This document shows, in pieces, positions 2,901 to 18,416 of a DNA stretch of 64,000 bases. The notes below the pieces were generated by a model. That model saw only the letters and a program-made list of their open reading frames with translations, was not told the DNA's origin and made no database searches. This DNA comes from Labrys monachus (GTDB taxonomy: Bacteria > Pseudomonadota > Alphaproteobacteria > Rhizobiales > Labraceae). The translations under genes and the position numbers were made by a program. Numbering within the stretch: the stretch's first letter is position 1; each line of letters begins with the position of its first letter. The stretch is from assembly GCF_030814655.1 (NCBI RefSeq), contig NZ_JAUSVK010000001.1, forward strand, positions 3,305,501 through 3,369,500. Direction: 5' to 3'.

Positions 2901-5111
2901 TCAATAATTGACGATCGTACCGAAGTGGAAGGCCTGCTTGTCGTCATACTTGTCCTTGGTCAGGACGAAAGCATAGTCGAAGCGCAGGGGCCCGAGCGGA
3001 GAAGCCCACAGCAGGCTGGCACCGACGGACGAGCGGATCTTCGAGGAATCGTGCAACTGGAAGGTGGCGGCCGATCCATCGGAATTGAAGAAATGCTTGT
3101 CGCCCCCGTAATTGTAGACGGTACCGGCATCCGCGAACAGGGCGCCGCGCAATCCAACCTCACGCGGGAGGCCAAAGATCGGGAACTGAACTTCGACCGT
3201 ACCACCGAAATAGGTGGTGCCGCCGAGACCGTTGCCCTTGCCGCCGCCGGCGAGGTCACGCGGTCCGATGCCGCCCGGCGCGAAGCCGCGCACCAGATCC
3301 GGGCCGGGACTGAACTGGTCGACGATCGCCAGTTTGTCGCCACCGAGGGCGGTCATGTAACCACCCTGCGCACGTGCCATCAGGGTGAAATCGTCGGTCA
3401 GCGGATAATAGTACCTGGAGTCGACCGTCTCACGCACGAAATGCGCGTCACCGCCAAGGCCGGCGACATCCTGCTTGAACTTGGCATAGATGCCTTCGCT
3501 CGGCTGCTTGAGGTCGTCGAGCGTGTTGTAGGTCAGCGAATAGCCGACCATCGACACGATACGAGACTTGCCGTTGAGTTCCTTGATCGCCTCGGACGCT
3601 TCGCCGTTCGCAAAATTGCCGTCGGTAAACTGCGCGTCCGGGATCGTGACCTTCTCCTGGTAGAGCGTGTAGTTCACACCCACCGCGAACTCGTCGGTGA
3701 CGGGGAAGGACAGGCGGATGGTGCCGCCGGTGTTCTGATCCTTATAATAGCTGTAGCTGTCGGCATCGGTGGTCTTGGAGAACAGATCGAAGCCGGCTGC
3801 GATGCGCTGCCCGAGGAAATAGGGCTCCGTGAAGGAGAATTCATAGCCCTGGGTGCGCTGGCCATATTCGGCCGAGACCTTCACATACTGGCCGCGGCCG
3901 AGGAAGTTGCGTTCCGACAGCGTCACCGATCCGAGAATACCGTCGGAGGTCGAATAGCCGCCGCCGACCGAGAACTCACCGGTCGACTGGTCGACGACGT
4001 CGACGTCCACGATCACCCGGTCGGGCTGCGAGCCCGGCTCGTTGGTGATCTTGACGCTCTGGAAATAGCCGAGATTGCGCAGGCGCCGCGCCGCCCGGTC
4101 GATCATCGCCTTGTTGTAGGGGTCGCCTTCGCCGATGTCGAACTCGCGGCGGATCACATAGTCACGTGTACGGGTGTTGCCCCGGATGTTGATCCGCTCG
4201 ATATAGACCTTGGCGCCTTCCTCCACGACATAGGACACCCCGACCGTGCCGTTCGCCTCGTCGCGCTCGGCACGCGGACGGACCACGGCGAAGGGATGGC
4301 CGGAGCCGGCCAGCTGCACCGTCATCTGCTCGACGGTCTTGTCGACATCCTCGCCGCGATACGACCAGTTCTGCCAGGACTCGATATTGTGATCGAGGTC
4401 GGCCGAATTGACGTCGGCAATCGTCGACTGGACGCTGGAAGGGCCGAACTTGTAATAGCGCCCCTCGTCCACCGTGATGGTGATGATGTAGGCGGTCTTC
4501 TCGTCATTGAGCGACGGCACCACCGAGACGACCCGGAAGTCCGGATAGCCGTGGTTCACATAGAACTGGCGAAGGCGCTCCTCGTCATTGGCAAGCCGGT
4601 CAGGATCGAACGTATCCGTGGTGCGCAGCCAGGAGAGCCAGCCCGATTCGGTCGTCGCCATCTGCCGCTTCAGGCGCCAGTCCGAGTAATTCTCGTTGCC
4701 GACGAAACGGATCTCGTCGATGCCGATCTTCACACCTTCGGCGACGGTGAAGACGAGGTCGACGCGGTTATTCGGTAGCGCCACCGTCCGGTAGGAGATC
4801 TCGACCGTCGAGCGGCCGACACGCGAATAGGCTTCCTTCATGCGGTCGATGTCGGAATTCACGGTCGCCTGATTATAGGCGTAACCGGCCTTCGACTCGA
4901 TGACCGCCGTAAGCTGGTCCGAATTGACCTTCTTGTTCTTCTCGAAAACGATTCGGTTGATGATCGGTGCCGAACGTGCCGCCACCTGCCGCTTCGGAGC
5001 TGCATAAGCCTGCTCGATCAGCGGGGATGCCACGAGGGCGCAGAACAGCGACGGAACCGCGACGGCGGCAAGGGCGACGCCCAGCTTCAACTTGTACACG
5101 GCTGATGCCAT
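2901..5111 (-). CDS. bamA: BamA, outer-membrane protein assembly factor
   Basis: 736 residues. A signal peptide (residues 1 to about 38, hydrophobic core GVALAAVAV, cleavage near AYA-AP) precedes five POTRA domains (about 45-400) and a 16-strand beta-barrel ending in a C-terminal aromatic residue (VNY). BamA is the insertase of the BAM complex in the outer membrane. The ATG at 5111 has GGGAAG upstream and starts the signal peptide (MASAVYKLKLG); an in-frame codon 24 residues upstream would add charged sequence before it. No skp/ompH gene lies between bamA and lpxD, unlike in gammaproteobacteria. Confidence 0.96.
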   Translation of the reverse strand: MASAVYKLKLGVALAAVAVPSLFCALVASPLIEQAYAAPKRQVAARSAPIINRIVFEKNKKVNSDQLTAVIESKAGYAYNQATVNSDIDRMKEAYSRVGRSTVEISYRTVALPNNRVDLVFTVAEGVKIGIDEIRFVGNENYSDWRLKRQMATTESGWLSWLRTTDTFDPDRLANDEERLRQFYVNHGYPDFRVVSVVPSLNDEKTAYIITITVDEGRYYKFGPSSVQSTIADVNSADLDHNIESWQNWSYRGEDVDKTVEQMTVQLAGSGHPFAVVRPRAERDEANGTVGVSYVVEEGAKVYIERINIRGNTRTRDYVIRREFDIGEGDPYNKAMIDRAARRLRNLGYFQSVKITNEPGSQPDRVIVDVDVVDQSTGEFSVGGGYSTSDGILGSVTLSERNFLGRGQYVKVSAEYGQRTQGYEFSFTEPYFLGQRIAAGFDLFSKTTDADSYSYYKDQNTGGTIRLSFPVTDEFAVGVNYTLYQEKVTIPDAQFTDGNFANGEASEAIKELNGKSRIVSMVGYSLTYNTLDDLKQPSEGIYAKFKQDVAGLGGDAHFVRETVDSRYYYPLTDDFTLMARAQGGYMTALGGDKLAIVDQFSPGPDLVRGFAPGGIGPRDLAGGGKGNGLGGTTYFGGTVEVQFPIFGLPREVGLRGALFADAGTVYNYGGDKHFFNSDGSAATFQLHDSSKIRSSVGASLLWASPLGPLRFDYAFVLTKDKYDDKQAFHFGTIVNY

Positions 5112-12328: not shown

Positions 12329-15300
12329 CTACAGCTGCTGCACGGTCGCGACGCCCGGAATGGCCTTGATGGCGCCGGCGATCTGGGGCGTGACGAGAAA
12401 GCGGCCGGGCAATCTCAGCTCGACCTCCCGTTGGCCGGCCTCGATCTGCAGGATCAGGAACACCTCTCCTTCCCCGCGCTGGCCGAGGCGCTTGGCGACC
12501 GATTCCAGGGCCTGCTCCCCCTGTACGAAGACCTTGATGCCGCGCTGGGTCTTGGCGGCGGCGGCGTCGAGCCTCTCGGCCGTTACGATGCGGATGCGCA
12601 CATCGTCCCCTTCATAGGCGGCCTGCACGGTGATCAGCACCGCCGTGCCGGGCTCCAGGAGATCGCGATATTGCGCCAGCCCCTCCGAGAAGATCACCGC
12701 CTCGAACTGCCCGGACGCATCCGACAGGAGGATCACTCCCATCTTCGACCCGGTGCGGGTCTTGCGTTCGGACTTCGAGAGCACCGTCGCCGCAAGACGC
12801 CCTGCCGTCGCGCCCTGCTTCACCTTCTGGACGAACTGGGCCCAGGACGGCACCTGCAGCCGCTCCAGCGCCGTCGTATAGGAATCGAGGGGGTGGCCCG
12901 ACAGGAAGAACCCGATGGCATCGAATTCGCGCTGGAGGCGCTCGGAGGGCTCCCACGGCTCGACGACGGTTCCCTTCAGCGGTTCCGGCGCCGCGGAAGC
13001 CCCGAACATGTCGGACTGGCCGTCATGCTTCTCGGCATGGGCGCGCTGCGCCTGCGCCATGATGGCGTCGATCGAGGCGGTGACGCGGGCACGGTCCCGG
13101 TCGAACTCGTCGAAGGCGCCCGCCGCCGCCAGGCTTTCGAGGATGCGCTTGTTGATGGCCTTGGGATCGATGCGCCTGGCAAAGTCCCCGAGATCGAAGA
13201 AGGGACGGTCGCCGCGGATCTCGACGAGACGCTGCATGGCCGCCATGCCGACGCCCTTCACGGCCCCCAGCGCGTAACGGATGGCTCCGTCATGCACTTC
13301 GAAATCGGGGCCCGAACGGTTGACGGAGGGCGGCTCGACCTTGATGCCGAGCCGCCGGGCCTCGAGGCGGAACTCCGCGAGCTTGTCGGTGTTCGACATG
13401 TCGAGCGACATCGAGGCGGCCATGAACTCGACCGGGTAGTTCGCCTTAAGATAGGCGGTATGGTAGGAAACCAGCGCATAAGCCGCGGCGTGGCTCTTGT
13501 TGAAGCCGTAATCGGCGAATTTGGCGAGATAGTCGAAGATTTCGTCCGCCTTCGCCTTGGAGGTGCCCCGTTCGACCGCGCCGGTGACGAAACGGGCGCG
13601 CTGCGCATCCATTTCGGCCTTGATCTTCTTGCCCATGGCGCGGCGCAGCATGTCTGCCTCGCCGAGCGTATAGCCCGACAGGATCTGCGCGATCTGCATC
13701 ACCTGTTCCTGATAGATGATGACGCCATAGGTCTCCTCCAGCGCGGGCTTGAGCTGGTCGAGCATATAGTCGGGTTCTTCGAGACCTTTCTTGCGGGCAT
13801 TATAGACGGGGATGTTGGCCATCGGGCCCGGGCGGTAGAGCGCCACGAGGGCGATGATGTCCTCGAACCGGTCCGCATTCATGTCGAGCAGGGCCTTGCG
13901 CATGCCCGCGCTTTCAACCTGGAACACGCCGACCGTCTCGCCCCGCCCGAGCATCTGGTAGCTGCGCACGTCGTCGAGCGGTACGCTGGCGAGATCGAGC
14001 GTGATGCCGCGCTGGGCCAGGAACATCACGGCGCGCTGCAGCACCGTCAGCGTCTTCAGGCCGAGAAAGTCGAACTTGACCAGGCCGGCCTGCTCGATCC
14101 ATTTCATGTTGAACTGGGTGGCCGGCATCGGCATCGCGGTCTTCGGATCGTGATAGAGCGGCACCAGCTCGATCAGGGGCCGGTCGCCGATCACCACGCC
14201 GGCGGCGTGGGTGGATGCGTGGCGATAGAGCCCCTCCAGCTTCTGGGCGATGCCGAGCATGCGCTCGACGGTGGGGTCGTCCTTGGCCGATTCGCGCAGC
14301 TTCGGCTCGTCCTCGATCGCCTTCGAAAGGGTCACCGGATTGGCCGGGTTCTGCGGCACGAGCTTGCAGAGCTTGTCGACCTGGCCATAGCCCATCTCGA
14401 GCGTCCGGCCGACGTCGCGCATCACGCCGCGGGCCTGCAGCGAACCGAAGGTGATGATCTGCGCCACCCGGTCCTCGCCGTACTTCTCCTGCACGTAGCG
14501 GATGACCTCGTCGCGCCGATCCTGACAGAAATCGATGTCGAAGTCCGGCATCGAAATACGCTCGGGGTTGAGGAAACGCTCGAACAACAGCCCGAAGCGC
14601 AGGGGATCGAGGTCCGTGATGGTGAGGGAGTAGGCGACGAGCGAACCGGCGCCCGAGCCGCGTCCGGGACCGACCGGGATGCCCTTGGACTTGGCGTGCT
14701 TGATGAAGTCGGACACGATGAGGAAGTAGCCCGGAAACTTCATGCGCTCGATGATCGACAGTTCGAAGTCGAGGCGCTTCGAGTAGTCATCCACGGCGAG
14801 CCCCGCGGCCGGCCCGTGCGCCGCAAGGCGGGCCTGCAGCCCCTCCACGGCCTGGCGGCGCAATTCGACGGCTTCGTCGACCGGCTGCCCGTTCTCGTCC
14901 ACACTGGTCGAGAATCGCGGCAGGATAGGCTTGCGCGTGCGCACCCGGAAGGCGCAGCGCTTGGCGATTTCTATCGTGTTGTCGATAGCTTCCGGCAAAT
15001 CCCTGAACAGGGACATCATCTCGGAACGGGTCTTGAAATAATGCTGCGCGGTCACCCGGCGCCGGTCCGTCTCGGCGAGGATGCGGCCCTCGGCGATGGC
15101 CAGGAGCGCATCATGGGATTCATGATCCGAGCGCGCCGCGAAATAGACCTCGTTGGTCGCCACGATCGGAAAGCCGCGCGCATAGGCCAGATCGACGAGG
15201 CTGCCCTCGACCTGCTGTTCCTCCGCGGTGTCGTGCCGCTGCAGCTCGACATAGAGCCGGTCGCCGAAAAGGCCGGCCAGACGTTCGAGCCTCAGCCCGG

Positions 15301-15799
15301 CGAGCGCATCCTGCCCGTCGCGCAGGGCGCCGTCCACCGGCCCCCCCGGACCGCCGGTCAAGGCGATCAGGCCGCCGCCCAGGCCGCTCAGGCGGTCGAA
15401 CGAGACATGGGCCTCTGCCCCACTCCCCGCGTCCATGTAGCTGTGGGAGGACAGGGCCATCAGATGGCCGTAGCCCTCCTCGCTCTGCGCGAGCAGCACG
15501 AGGCGCGGCAGGCGGCGCTGATGCATCGGGCGGCGGTCCGCCGCGTCCTCGCGATCGGCGAAATCCACCGCCAGCGACAGGCCCATGATCGGCTGGATGC
15601 CGCTGCCGGCGAGCTTTTCGGAGAATTCGAGCGCGCCGAACAGGTTGCTGGAATCGGTCAGCGCCACCGCCGGCATGCCGTCCGCCTTGGCGAGATCGGA
15701 AATCTTCCCGACCTTCATCGCCCCTTCGAGCAAAGAGTAGGAGGAACGGACATGCAGATGCACGAAGCCCGGTCCGCGCCTAGCCTTGTCGTCCGCCAT
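12329..15799 (-). CDS. dnaE: DNA polymerase III alpha subunit (replicative DnaE1)
   Basis: 1156 residues. An N-terminal PHP domain (HLHVRSSYSLLEGAM, about 14-28) is followed by the C-family polymerase palm with the catalytic PDFDIDFCQDRR motif, fingers, a helix-hairpin-helix segment and a C-terminal OB fold. Length and motifs fit replicative DnaE1, not the SOS-inducible DnaE2. Two ATGs are adjacent; 15799 is chosen over 15802 because GGAGG lies immediately upstream and spacing is better. Two DnaA boxes and a small SOS-type gene lie within 400 bp upstream. Confidence 0.96.
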   Translation of the reverse strand: MADDKARRGPGFVHLHVRSSYSLLEGAMKVGKISDLAKADGMPAVALTDSSNLFGALEFSEKLAGSGIQPIMGLSLAVDFADREDAADRRPMHQRRLPRLVLLAQSEEGYGHLMALSSHSYMDAGSGAEAHVSFDRLSGLGGGLIALTGGPGGPVDGALRDGQDALAGLRLERLAGLFGDRLYVELQRHDTAEEQQVEGSLVDLAYARGFPIVATNEVYFAARSDHESHDALLAIAEGRILAETDRRRVTAQHYFKTRSEMMSLFRDLPEAIDNTIEIAKRCAFRVRTRKPILPRFSTSVDENGQPVDEAVELRRQAVEGLQARLAAHGPAAGLAVDDYSKRLDFELSIIERMKFPGYFLIVSDFIKHAKSKGIPVGPGRGSGAGSLVAYSLTITDLDPLRFGLLFERFLNPERISMPDFDIDFCQDRRDEVIRYVQEKYGEDRVAQIITFGSLQARGVMRDVGRTLEMGYGQVDKLCKLVPQNPANPVTLSKAIEDEPKLRESAKDDPTVERMLGIAQKLEGLYRHASTHAAGVVIGDRPLIELVPLYHDPKTAMPMPATQFNMKWIEQAGLVKFDFLGLKTLTVLQRAVMFLAQRGITLDLASVPLDDVRSYQMLGRGETVGVFQVESAGMRKALLDMNADRFEDIIALVALYRPGPMANIPVYNARKKGLEEPDYMLDQLKPALEETYGVIIYQEQVMQIAQILSGYTLGEADMLRRAMGKKIKAEMDAQRARFVTGAVERGTSKAKADEIFDYLAKFADYGFNKSHAAAYALVSYHTAYLKANYPVEFMAASMSLDMSNTDKLAEFRLEARRLGIKVEPPSVNRSGPDFEVHDGAIRYALGAVKGVGMAAMQRLVEIRGDRPFFDLGDFARRIDPKAINKRILESLAAAGAFDEFDRDRARVTASIDAIMAQAQRAHAEKHDGQSDMFGASAAPEPLKGTVVEPWEPSERLQREFDAIGFFLSGHPLDSYTTALERLQVPSWAQFVQKVKQGATAGRLAATVLSKSERKTRTGSKMGVILLSDASGQFEAVIFSEGLAQYRDLLEPGTAVLITVQAAYEGDDVRIRIVTAERLDAAAAKTQRGIKVFVQGEQALESVAKRLGQRGEGEVFLILQIEAGQREVELRLPGRFLVTPQIAGAIKAIPGVATVQQL

Positions 15800-16042
15800 C
15801 ATGCCTCCGTTCGCCCGCTGCCGCATTCCCCGCGCCCGGCCGGCATCTCCCGCCGGCGGACGCTCATGCGTGACATCGAGGGGCACGCCGCGGCGGACCG
15901 TCATCCGATTCGCCGCGCCCCGTCGACGGCAGGACGCAACCATGCCTCCGACGGGACCGCAAGGCCAGCCATCGTCCCGGCGCGGCGATCCCCAGCTCAT
16001 CCGCGATACGCCCGTGGCGCGGCCCCGAGCCTGCGGACGACC

Positions 16043-16061
16043 TGTGGACAAATGTGGATAA
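16043..16061 (-). promoter_or_regulatory. Two tandem DnaA boxes upstream of dnaE
   Basis: On the minus strand the sites read TTATCCACA (16053-16061, perfect consensus) and TTGTCCACA (16043-16051, one change), 10 bp apart and in the same orientation. They lie about 245 bp before the dnaE start and just past the stop of the small gene at 16068-16166. This suggests DnaA control of dnaE; nothing else here resembles an origin. Confidence 0.6.
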
Positions 16062-16067
16062 ATACCC

Positions 16068-16166
16068 TCAAACGCCGCTGAAGAAGCCCGACCACATGGC
16101 GAACATGATCAGAAACAGGCTGACGGAAGCCAGGGCAGCGATATCTTCGACGAAACGGGCGAGCAT
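16068..16166 (-). CDS. 32-residue single-pass membrane peptide, likely SOS-induced
   Basis: A 33-codon frame starting MLARFVEDIAALASVS and ending WSGFFSGV. Residues about 10-29 form one uninterrupted hydrophobic helix (LASVSLFLIMFAMW), after a short charged N-terminus. Translation signals are excellent: GGAGGG lies 5 nt before the ATG. Promoter elements about 21-55 bp upstream flank an exact GAAC-N7-GAAC SOS box. Caulobacter SidA, a 29-residue SOS-induced inner-membrane division inhibitor, has the same size, topology and control; homology to it is inference from those properties. The alternative is an unrelated small membrane protein. The gene is too short for most annotation pipelines. Confidence 0.7.
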   Translation of the reverse strand: MLARFVEDIAALASVSLFLIMFAMWSGFFSGV

Positions 16167-16193
16167 GGGTTCCCTCCTCTTGCGTGCCCCTCG

Positions 16194-16228
16194 ATAATGT
16201 TCATGTTTTGTTCCAGGTCAAGCCCGCC
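16194..16228 (-). promoter_or_regulatory. SOS-controlled promoter (LexA box GAAC-N7-GAAC)
   Basis: On the minus strand a TTGACC -35 (near 16216-16221) is followed after 16 bp by CATTAT (16194-16199). The spacer holds GAACAAAACATGAAC (16199-16213), an exact match to the alphaproteobacterial LexA box (direct repeat GTTC-N7-GTTC). Transcription would start near 16187, about 21 nt before the ATG of the 32-residue peptide gene. Confidence 0.7.
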
Positions 16229-16432
16229 TATCATCAAATTGCCACGTTACGTCTCGCTTCTGTTCCTCCCGCAGCCCCACGCCGGCTACATCGCCATCGC
16301 ATGCTCCGTAGGGAATCGTCGAATATTTCAGTGATTCCAGGGCGTTGGAAGAAAGCTGCCGCGCAGCCGGGCAAGGCGCGGCGCTTCGTTTACCATATCA
16401 GGATGCCGCCGCGCCGACTCGCTCGGTCCGGC

Positions 16433-17116
16433 TCAGTCGAGTTCGACGACCCGCCCTTCCCGCAGCGTGACGCGCCGATCCATGCGCGAGGCGAGATCGA
16501 GATTATGGGTCGCGACCAGTGCGGCGAGGCCGGAAGCCCGCACCAGCGCCGTCAGCGTGCCGAAGACATGCTCCGAGGTTCCCGGGTCGAGATTGCCCGT
16601 GGGCTCGTCGGCGAGAATGAGGTGAGGCGCGTTGGCGACCGCGCGGGCGATCGCCACCCTCTGCTGCTCGCCGCCGGAGAGTTCGCTCGGGCGATGGGTC
16701 AGGCGCCGGCCGAGCCCGAGGAAGGTCAGCAGCTCCTCCCCCCTCCGGCGTGCCTCGCTGCGCCCCAGCCCGCGGATCATCTGGGGCAGGATCACGTTTT
16801 CCAGCGCCGTGAATTCCGGCTGGAGATGATGGAACTGATAGACGAAGCCGATCGAAACCCGGCGCACCCTGGTGCGGCCCGTATCGTTCAGCGCGGCCGT
16901 CGGCTCGCCCGAGATCAGCACGTCGCCGCCATTGGGTTTTTCGAGAAGGCCTGCGATATGCAGCAAGGTCGATTTGCCGACGCCGGAAGGTGCGATCAGC
17001 GCCACCGACTGGCCCGGCATCACCTTCAGGTCCGCACCGCGCAGGATCTCGAGCACGGTGTTGCCCTGCCGGTAGCGGCGCCTGATGCCACGCAGTTCCA
17101 ATGCGGGAGCGGCCAT
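16433..17116 (-). CDS. lolD: LolD, lipoprotein-release ABC transporter ATPase
   Basis: 227 residues. Walker A APSGVGKS is at 42-49, the signature LSGGEQQR near 148, and Walker [13 protein letters not shown] follows. LolD powers extraction of outer-membrane lipoproteins from the inner membrane by LolC/E. It starts 4 bp after the stop of the permease gene, so the two form an operon. The family resemblance to MacB-type ATPases is close, but the partner protein decides for Lol. Confidence 0.93.
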
Positions 17117-17120
17117 CCTC

Positions 17121-18416
17121 TTATCCTCCCCGCAACGCTTCGACCGGATCCAGCCGGGCCGCCCGCCATGCCGGATAGAGCGTGGCCAGGAAGCACAGCG
17201 CCAGCGTCGTGACGATGACCACCGTGACCTCGGTCGGATCGACCTTGGCCGGCAGGCGCGACAGGAAATAGATTTCCGAGGAGAACAACTGCGTATTCAG
17301 CGCCCAGGAAATGAACTCCTGGATATTCTCGATGTAGCGGCAGAACACCAGCCCGATGATCAGGCCGTCCACGGTGCCGATGATGCCGATCGACATGCCG
17401 GTGATGAGAAAGACCCGCATCATGGCGCCCCGGGTCGCTCCCATGGTGCGCATGATGGCGATGTCGGTCTGCTTCGACTGCACCAGCATCGCCATGCTCG
17501 ACACCACGCCGAGCGCCGCCATGACGATGAGCAGCAGCAGGATCATGAACATCACGTTGCGCTCCACCTGCAGCGCGGTGAAGAAGGAGGCGTTGCGCTG
17601 GCGCCAATCGACCATGGCGACCGGGCGGCCCGCAGCCTTCTGGATGGCCTGGCGCGCGGTATCGACGGAATCGGGGTCGTCGAGATAGACCTCGATGCCC
17701 GTCACGTCATTGTCCCGCGAGAAATAGGCCTGCGCCTCCTGGAGCGGCATGATCACGAAACTGGAATCGATATCCGACAGGCCGACCTCGAAGGTCGCTG
17801 CGATCGGATAGGCCTTGATCCGAGGCGTGGTGCCGAATGCCGTCTGGTCTCCCTTCGGCGAGATCATGGTGATCTTGTCGCCGATCTGCAGGCCCAGCGA
17901 GGTCGCCAGCCGCGTGCCGACGACGACGCCCTGCCCCTGGTCGAAGCCGTCCAGCGTGCCGTCCTTGATGTTCTTGGCGAGCCCCGGCAGCTTCTGCAGG
18001 TCTTCCAGGCGCATGCCGCGCACCAGCACGCCGCTGGCCGAGAAGGGCGAGGAAACCAGGACCTGCCCCTCGACGAAGGGAATGGCGAGCTTGACGCCCT
18101 CGACGCCGCTGATCCGCTTGGCGACGGCATCGAAGTCGCTCAGCGGCGTTTCGCTCGGCGTCACGATGATGTGGCCGTTGAACCCGAGGATCTTGGACTG
18201 CAATTCGACGCGAAATCCGTTCATGACGGACATGACGACGATCAGGGCCCAGACGCCGATGACGAAGCTCAGGAAGGAGATGATGGCGATCAGCGAGGAG
18301 AAACCGCCCTTGCGGCGCGGCAGCAGATACCGCATCGCCACCAGCCACTCGAAGCTGGCAAAGGGCATGGTTCCCGTAGGTTCCGGCGATGTCTTGGCTG
18401 AAGAAGAGACGGTCAT
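17121..18416 (-). CDS. lolC: LolC/LolE-type lipoprotein-release permease
   Basis: 431 residues. One N-terminal membrane helix (about 38-65, [20 protein letters not shown]) precedes a large periplasmic MacB-like domain (about 70-270); three further membrane helices lie between about 290 and 425. Alphaproteobacteria use a single LolC/E-like subunit as a homodimer with LolD. The start at 18416 has GGAA 6 nt before it; an alternative ATG lies 16 codons in. It is the first gene of the lolCD pair. Confidence 0.92.

Follow-up and report, generated by a model that had tools for sequence, protein, structure and literature searches.

Can a reading frame of 32 codons, set between a lolD-like gene and the gene for the replicative DNA polymerase, encode a checkpoint peptide that stops cell division after DNA damage? 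An earlier note on this locus took it for one, pointing to a LexA-type (SOS) box in the putative promoter and to a likeness to SidA, the small inner-membrane division inhibitor of Caulobacter crescentus. Here we follow the frame, its box and its address from the window, by which we mean the whole 64-kb stretch of DNA that was analysed, through the genomes of its order and class, and set out what they suggest about the function of the peptide.

A short membrane-peptide frame behind a LexA-type box

The frame lies downstream of the lolD-like gene and upstream of dnaE, with all three on the minus strand (Table 1), and its stop codon is 265 nt from the dnaE start. The placement beside the replicative polymerase gene is thus as the earlier note gave it. 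The same holds for the finer features it had described, namely an exact GAAC-N7-GAAC repeat between TTGACC and CATTAT, a GGAGGG ahead of the frame, and a frame of 33 codons (stop included) for one hydrophobic helix. For the last of these, AlphaFold2, run on the single sequence, predicts one helix over residues 2-31 with a mean pLDDT of 95.6. The predicted product, with 32 residues and one putative membrane helix, is close in size and topology to SidA, which spans the membrane once with about 29 residues.

Table 1 Coordinates of the peptide frame, its promoter elements and the neighbouring genes in the window
Feature	Position	Strand	Remarks
Peptide frame, 32 codons + TGA, ATG start	16166..16068	-	Encodes MLARFVEDIAALASVSLFLIMFAMWSGFFSGV, a predicted single-helix SidA-like membrane peptide
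Ribosome-binding site, GGAGGG	16172-16177	-	5 nt ahead of the ATG
-10 element, CATTAT	16194..16199	-	16-nt spacer; alternatively ATTATC with a 17-nt spacer
LexA-type (SOS) box, GAACAAAACATGAAC	16199-16213	-	Exact GAAC-N7-GAAC; fills the promoter spacer
-35 element, TTGACC	16216..16221	-	TTGAC starts 8 nt ahead of the box
dnaE, DNA polymerase III alpha subunit (replicative)	15802..12329	-	NF004226, 1459.7 bits (cut-off 1002)
lolD-like ABC ATPase gene	17116..16433	-	Best model TIGR02211, 242.2 bits (below the cut-off of 307.75)
lolC/E permease gene	18416..17121	-	TIGR02212, 475 bits (cut-off 362.45)

The arrangement TTGACC-16-CATTAT (16221..16194) is the sole sigma-70-like pair between positions 15700 and 16500, where shuffled sequence would give 0.1, and the start of the box is 47 nt from the peptide ATG. 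The 21-nt leader given in the earlier note presumes a particular transcription start site. The same interval holds one terminator-like site, which lies inside the peptide frame, has five pairs and is at about the level of shuffles; the search showed no such site in the stretch from the frame to dnaE. A Pfam search of family members gave stray weak matches only, for one member each, and a plasmid search returned nothing useful.

Taken alone, the bare box pattern in one window is weak evidence. GAAC-N7-GAAC occurs twice in the 64 kb against 1.28 expected, and at least two copies were present in 36 of 100 shuffles. The second exact copy (5043-5057, plus strand) is without the A-rich core, about one such copy being expected by chance. 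The whole 6.92-Mb genome contains 129 copies of GTTC-N7-GTTC, the form reported for Caulobacter SOS genes (PMC12700426), against 63 for the reversed control. For the extended form GTTC-N5-TTGTTC, the class to which the window box belongs, the counts are 24 and 2. Extended boxes lie upstream of recA, uvrA, ssb and imuA-like frames (genes recognised by eye), and the one lexA of the genome (TIGR00498, above cut-off) has a box about 70 nt ahead of it. This genome-wide reversed control, together with the shuffle controls upstream of dnaE described below, rules out a chance origin of the box. As in SidA, a putative LexA operator is thus seated in the promoter of the window peptide.

The genome also contains two similar regions with LexA-type boxes at 3261808 and 3265126 and at 5272215 and 5275533 (L032, L033, L039, L040). 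Each has two boxes at the same spacing of 3318 bases, and the pair is probably a duplicated prophage.

The frame is conserved among close relatives

A search with the single peptide over 100 genomes, its own included, gave matches at E ≤ 1 in 22, among them the rest of the genus, four members with identities of 65-72%. Sorted by eye, the 23 places found comprised 16 that belong to the family and seven that do not. An exact box stands upstream in 15 of the 16 (the window, the four congeners and ten others), with a near-box at L008. All ten pairwise comparisons among the five genus members gave dN/dS ratios of 0.15-0.51, in which single values are rough for so short a frame and all ten point one way, suggesting purifying selection on the peptide. 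Non-conservation of the frame, which the earlier note had named as grounds for dropping its proposal, was therefore not what we found: the frame is conserved in the genus and recurs over the order. Together with the shuffle control and the HMM described below, the dN/dS ratios rule out the reading of the frame as spurious.

Box and peptide recur upstream of dnaE

The N-terminus of DnaE was matched in all 297 genomes of the window's order and in 365 of 370 of the class. From these we took the upstream DNA of 88 order loci, representing 88 genomes, 72 genera and 35 families, and of 76 loci from other orders (65 genera, 62 families). The order loci come from the 150 of 297 dnaE matches listed, so that weaker-scoring families are under-sampled. 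Repeats of genomes already counted (L227, L238, L249) were excluded, and loci with less than 620 nt of upstream sequence (L117, L262, L269, L285) were kept in the denominators. A further 46 loci, 4 of the order and 42 of other orders, were missed by the dnaE motif pattern and positioned by search coordinate; L145, L150, L167 and L168 showed no dnaE motif by the pattern used.

In the 620 nt ahead of dnaE, 56 of the 88 order loci (43 of 72 genera, 22 of 35 families) and 14 of the 76 loci of other orders have an exact GAAC-N7-GAAC. Controls in the same 88 loci were far apart from this count: dinucleotide shuffles gave a mean of 1.05 and a maximum of 3, the reversed pattern gave 1, and spacers of 4, 5, 6, 8, 9, 10 and 11 gave between 0 and 4. 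Turned the other way, the box was seen at 11 of 88. Among titled records, none of the 17 loci of Rhodobacterales type has a box at dnaE. As in the window, TTGAC begins 8-11 nt ahead of the box in 39 of the 78 boxes surveyed. Two exact boxes within the 620 nt occur at 8 of 70 loci (L111, L131, L180, L210, L213, L231, L237, L244).

The box is accompanied by a frame. At 57 of the 70 box-bearing loci, other orders included, the 60 nt after it contain the ATG of a hydrophobic frame with 20-60 codons, whereas the same test on shuffles gave a mean of 0.9 and a maximum of 3; between the start of the box and the ATG there are most often 46-58 nt. A combined HMM placed the family peptide at 57 of the 88 order loci, 52 with an exact box and 5 without, found none at the remaining 31, and placed it at 12 of the 76 other-order loci, all with a box, counts that are partly circular because many of the surveyed sequences went into the model. 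Over 69 loci the gap from peptide to dnaE ranges from 17 to 590 nt.

The search that the earlier note had proposed, for box and frame upstream of dnaE across Rhizobiales, thus supports the proposal. Its description of a Hyphomicrobiales peptide stands as far as the wide occurrence in the order is concerned and fails as a boundary, the peptide being found at dnaE in other alphaproteobacterial orders as well.

Whole-genome search and moved or duplicated copies

A profile (A3) was built from 39 peptides of the window's order chosen by hand, and order counts from A3 and from the combined HMM are for that reason partly circular. Run against 297 whole genomes of the order at E ≤ 1e-3, it found the family in 159 genomes and 56 of 116 genera. 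Some A3 source genomes were among those searched; the search was nonetheless free to find copies elsewhere. At the same threshold A3 had no match in 138 of the 297 genomes, in which the gene may have been lost, have moved, or have diverged past the reach of a 32-residue profile.

Of the 150 peptide matches listed, 88 could be compared with a listed dnaE position in their genome, and 87 of these precede dnaE on its own strand, at a distance of 41-1610 nt. The other 62 listed matches fall in genomes without a listed dnaE, seven of which were examined. In most lineages where position could be checked, the gene is retained upstream of dnaE; some lineages are without it, and others have moved or duplicated copies.

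The one exception among the 88 (L012, G089:C132:53857-53931; A3 E 3.4e-4) lies in a phage-like region and has no box. There a longer frame has the family pattern, with Trp seven residues past Phe, at its C-terminal end; this segment is either a chance resemblance or a phage-borne SidA-like helix. This locus was excluded from the first alignment (A1).

Moved copies were seen in f24 g62, where the peptide is away from dnaE in all three fetched genomes (at 714 kb, at 318 kb and on another contig) and in each still has an exact box, or two, at 37-48 nt upstream. Here, then, it is the peptide that the box has followed, not dnaE. In these genomes (L316 G511, L317 G072, L318 G652) a frame carrying an HELGH motif comes after the peptide, on its strand. 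The frame at L316, the one of the three tested, has a Peptidase M50 domain (PF02163, 1.6e-11), and the neighbour is possibly a protease that clears the division brake. In f45, all four fetched genomes (G670, G622, G087, G607; L308-L315) have two copies of the peptide each. Next to dnaE, the box of the copy is eroded (GAACAAAACAAATAC is an example), and the second copy, away from dnaE, has no exact box in the DNA examined.

In Sinorhizobium meliloti, a member of Hyphomicrobiales, ribosome profiling is reported to show a translated small ORF, sORF25, in the 5'-UTR of dnaE1 (PMC10117765). It may be this gene; that identity is only a lead, because the family's peptides in the three fetched f24 g62 genomes are not at dnaE.

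Alignment A1, applied class-wide, matched 175 of 387 genomes at E ≤ 1, mostly as noise. An exact box stands ahead of the match at five of 29 such loci (L048-L076). Of these, L048 and L049 were known family members, while L052, L053 and L054 are new, with the dnaE motif downstream.

Relation to SidA

The curated equivalog model of SidA is NCBIfam NF033228, with a cut-off of 35 bits. Compared with it at E ≤ 10, the window peptide gives no match, and the top score among 15 relatives is 13.2 bits, so that membership of this equivalog as it stands is rejected. Across 387 genomes of the class, NF033228 gave matches at E ≤ 1 in 135, with a single one above the cut-off (L079). It also matched seven of 14 named controls, Caulobacter vibrioides included, one of them (identity not given) above the cut-off.

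At L079, a sequence found in an uncultured Caulobacterales MAG (L139), the elements run lolC-lolD-box-sidA-dnaE, where the lol genes were identified by eye, and weaker NF033228 matches in the same bacterial family (L080, L083) likewise fall between a box and dnaE. The window and L079 therefore share the neighbourhood lolD-sidA-dnaE, with the peptide gene directly upstream of dnaE and lolD upstream of it. In C. vibrioides, sidA is probably CC1927. The dnaE1 gene is given as CC1926 (PMC1839093).

An HMM built from order peptides only was run on 897 translated dnaE-upstream pieces, drawn from other orders and from titled records. Unlike the order counts from A3 and the combined HMM, its recovery of SidA-type frames is an independent test. 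It returned 20 frames at E < 0.01, against a best E of 0.11 in a reversed-sequence control of 659 pieces. Nine of the 20 are SidA frames of Caulobacterales type (E 2e-4 to 6e-3), two of them from the same genome; three (L146, L147, L151) are members of the window's own order, L151 duplicating a row of A3. In a single hhalign comparison, the order alignment met the SidA alignment with a probability of 89.3% and an E of 2.1e-6. At E < 0.01 both profiles pick up L230 (f60) and L304 (f54), two sequences that each have both Trp positions.

These Trp positions mark the main difference, since the conserved Trp stands at Phe+7 in the window's order and at Phe+2 in SidA; the window peptide also has a longer C-terminal tail. 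Common to both, in the N-terminal half, are a basic-acidic pair, an A/S-L motif, a small residue and the Phe.

From the profile matches, the bridging sequences and the synteny, we conclude that the window peptide is a divergent homologue of SidA at a common address, outside the curated equivalog. The SidA-type identity claimed in the earlier note therefore survives as homology by profile and as a place shared with curated SidA, and does not extend to a match with NF033228. The presence of the family in about half of the order genomes searched suggests that the SidA-like checkpoint family goes much further back, and is much more common, than the curated family would lead one to expect.

Proposed function

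By analogy with SidA, and on the sequence evidence above, we consider it likely that the gene encodes a LexA-repressed SidA homologue that halts septation at FtsW after DNA damage. In the undamaged cell, LexA seated on the box in the promoter spacer would block transcription. After damage, RecA on single-stranded DNA would bring about LexA self-cleavage and leave the promoter active, and the promoter would then yield the 32-residue peptide, which its frame and predicted helix suggest to be a single-pass protein of the inner membrane. If it behaves as SidA does, the peptide would bind FtsW (and FtsN) and keep the septal FtsW/FtsI/FtsN complex inactive, and with that complex inactive no division would take place over damaged chromosomes. 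The window genome encodes an FtsW homologue (321.9 bits, slightly below the cut-off of 337.5).

SidA is described as a 29-residue inner-membrane protein under LexA, whose toxicity is suppressed by mutations in ftsW (A246T and F145L, for example) and ftsI and which is proposed to keep FtsW/I/N in an inactive state (PMC4211646). DidA, also of Caulobacter, is by the same account likewise a small damage-induced transmembrane inhibitor of division that acts on FtsW/I/N; set beside the window peptide by description, it differs in being induced by DriD, independent of SOS and bound to FtsN (PMC4211646). Similarly likened by description are YneA of Bacillus subtilis and SosA of Staphylococcus, which are reported to be SOS-induced membrane inhibitors of division as well (PMC13396833). 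In that 2026 paper on YneA, YneA binds FtsW, and AlphaFold 3 models that are not of high confidence put SosA and SidA on FtsW, SidA against TM7 (PMC13396833). YneA is described as having a LysM domain, for which the window peptide is too short.

The position of the gene, on the same strand just upstream of dnaE in 87 of the 88 checkable matches and separated from it in the window by no terminator-like site that we could find, would also suit an SOS-controlled leader peptide or uORF whose translation adjusts the expression of dnaE, the point being a damage-induced polymerase and the amino-acid sequence being of little matter. The small ORFs in 5'-UTRs of S. meliloti, sORF25 before dnaE1 among them, have indeed been suggested as uORFs (PMC10117765). 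However, the amino acids are conserved, as the dN/dS ratios indicate, and the helix pattern is common to many families. Nor is the proximity to dnaE fixed, given the spread of gaps over the 69 loci and the f24 g62 peptides, which lie hundreds of kb from dnaE or on another contig and keep their box or boxes. We regard a leader role as very improbable. The size class, the one hydrophobic helix and the SOS box are also those of TisB and DinQ, SOS-induced toxins that depolarise the membrane, and a peptide of this kind would slow growth through lost membrane potential and not via the divisome. Against this stand the homology and synteny with SidA, as well as a position conserved across families, which typical type I toxins are not known to keep. 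In addition, no Rfam family matched 15700-16500 at E ≤ 0.1, so that no described antisense antitoxin RNA lies there, while novel RNAs, a new antisense RNA included, would escape this search. The chance that the peptide is such a toxin appears to us very small.

An improbable variant is that a SidA-derived peptide was retargeted in the window's order, for example to a different membrane protein such as the Lol transporter, with LexA control kept. The Trp position and C-terminal tail, both unlike those of SidA, could be read in this way, as could the same-strand lolD homologue (tblastn) upstream of dnaE at 33 of the 69 peptide-bearing loci. However, the homologue was not found in the upstream DNA examined at the other 36, and it is present at 59 of 95 peptide-less loci, so that the peptide does not track lolD. 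The N-terminal half in common with SidA (basic residue, D/E, A/S-L, Phe) and the existence of bridging sequences likewise speak against retargeting.

To return to the LexA-controlled division inhibitor, a broader history can be sketched for it, which we offer tentatively and think rather unlikely as a whole. SidA would be an old alphaproteobacterial checkpoint gene of the dnaE locus, one LexA promoter would serve both the brake and, by read-through, dnaE, and a moved copy would have gained an M50 protease that may clear the brake. If this were true, damage would coordinately stop septation and supply polymerase.

Significance

SidA itself is already known; what appears to be new is the spread of its family beside dnaE in the window's order. 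This order includes nitrogen-fixing symbionts and intracellular bacteria, and our literature search, which was not exhaustive, found no description of SidA or of another SOS division inhibitor in it. With a frame of about 30 codons, the gene may often be missed by annotation.

Its occurrence in 159 of 297 sampled genomes, mostly at one address, would give the order a single, testable candidate SOS division inhibitor. The natural diversity of these short helices would reveal residues that are important for acting on FtsW. If the proposed function is true, SidA would become a general model for SOS division control in Alphaproteobacteria.
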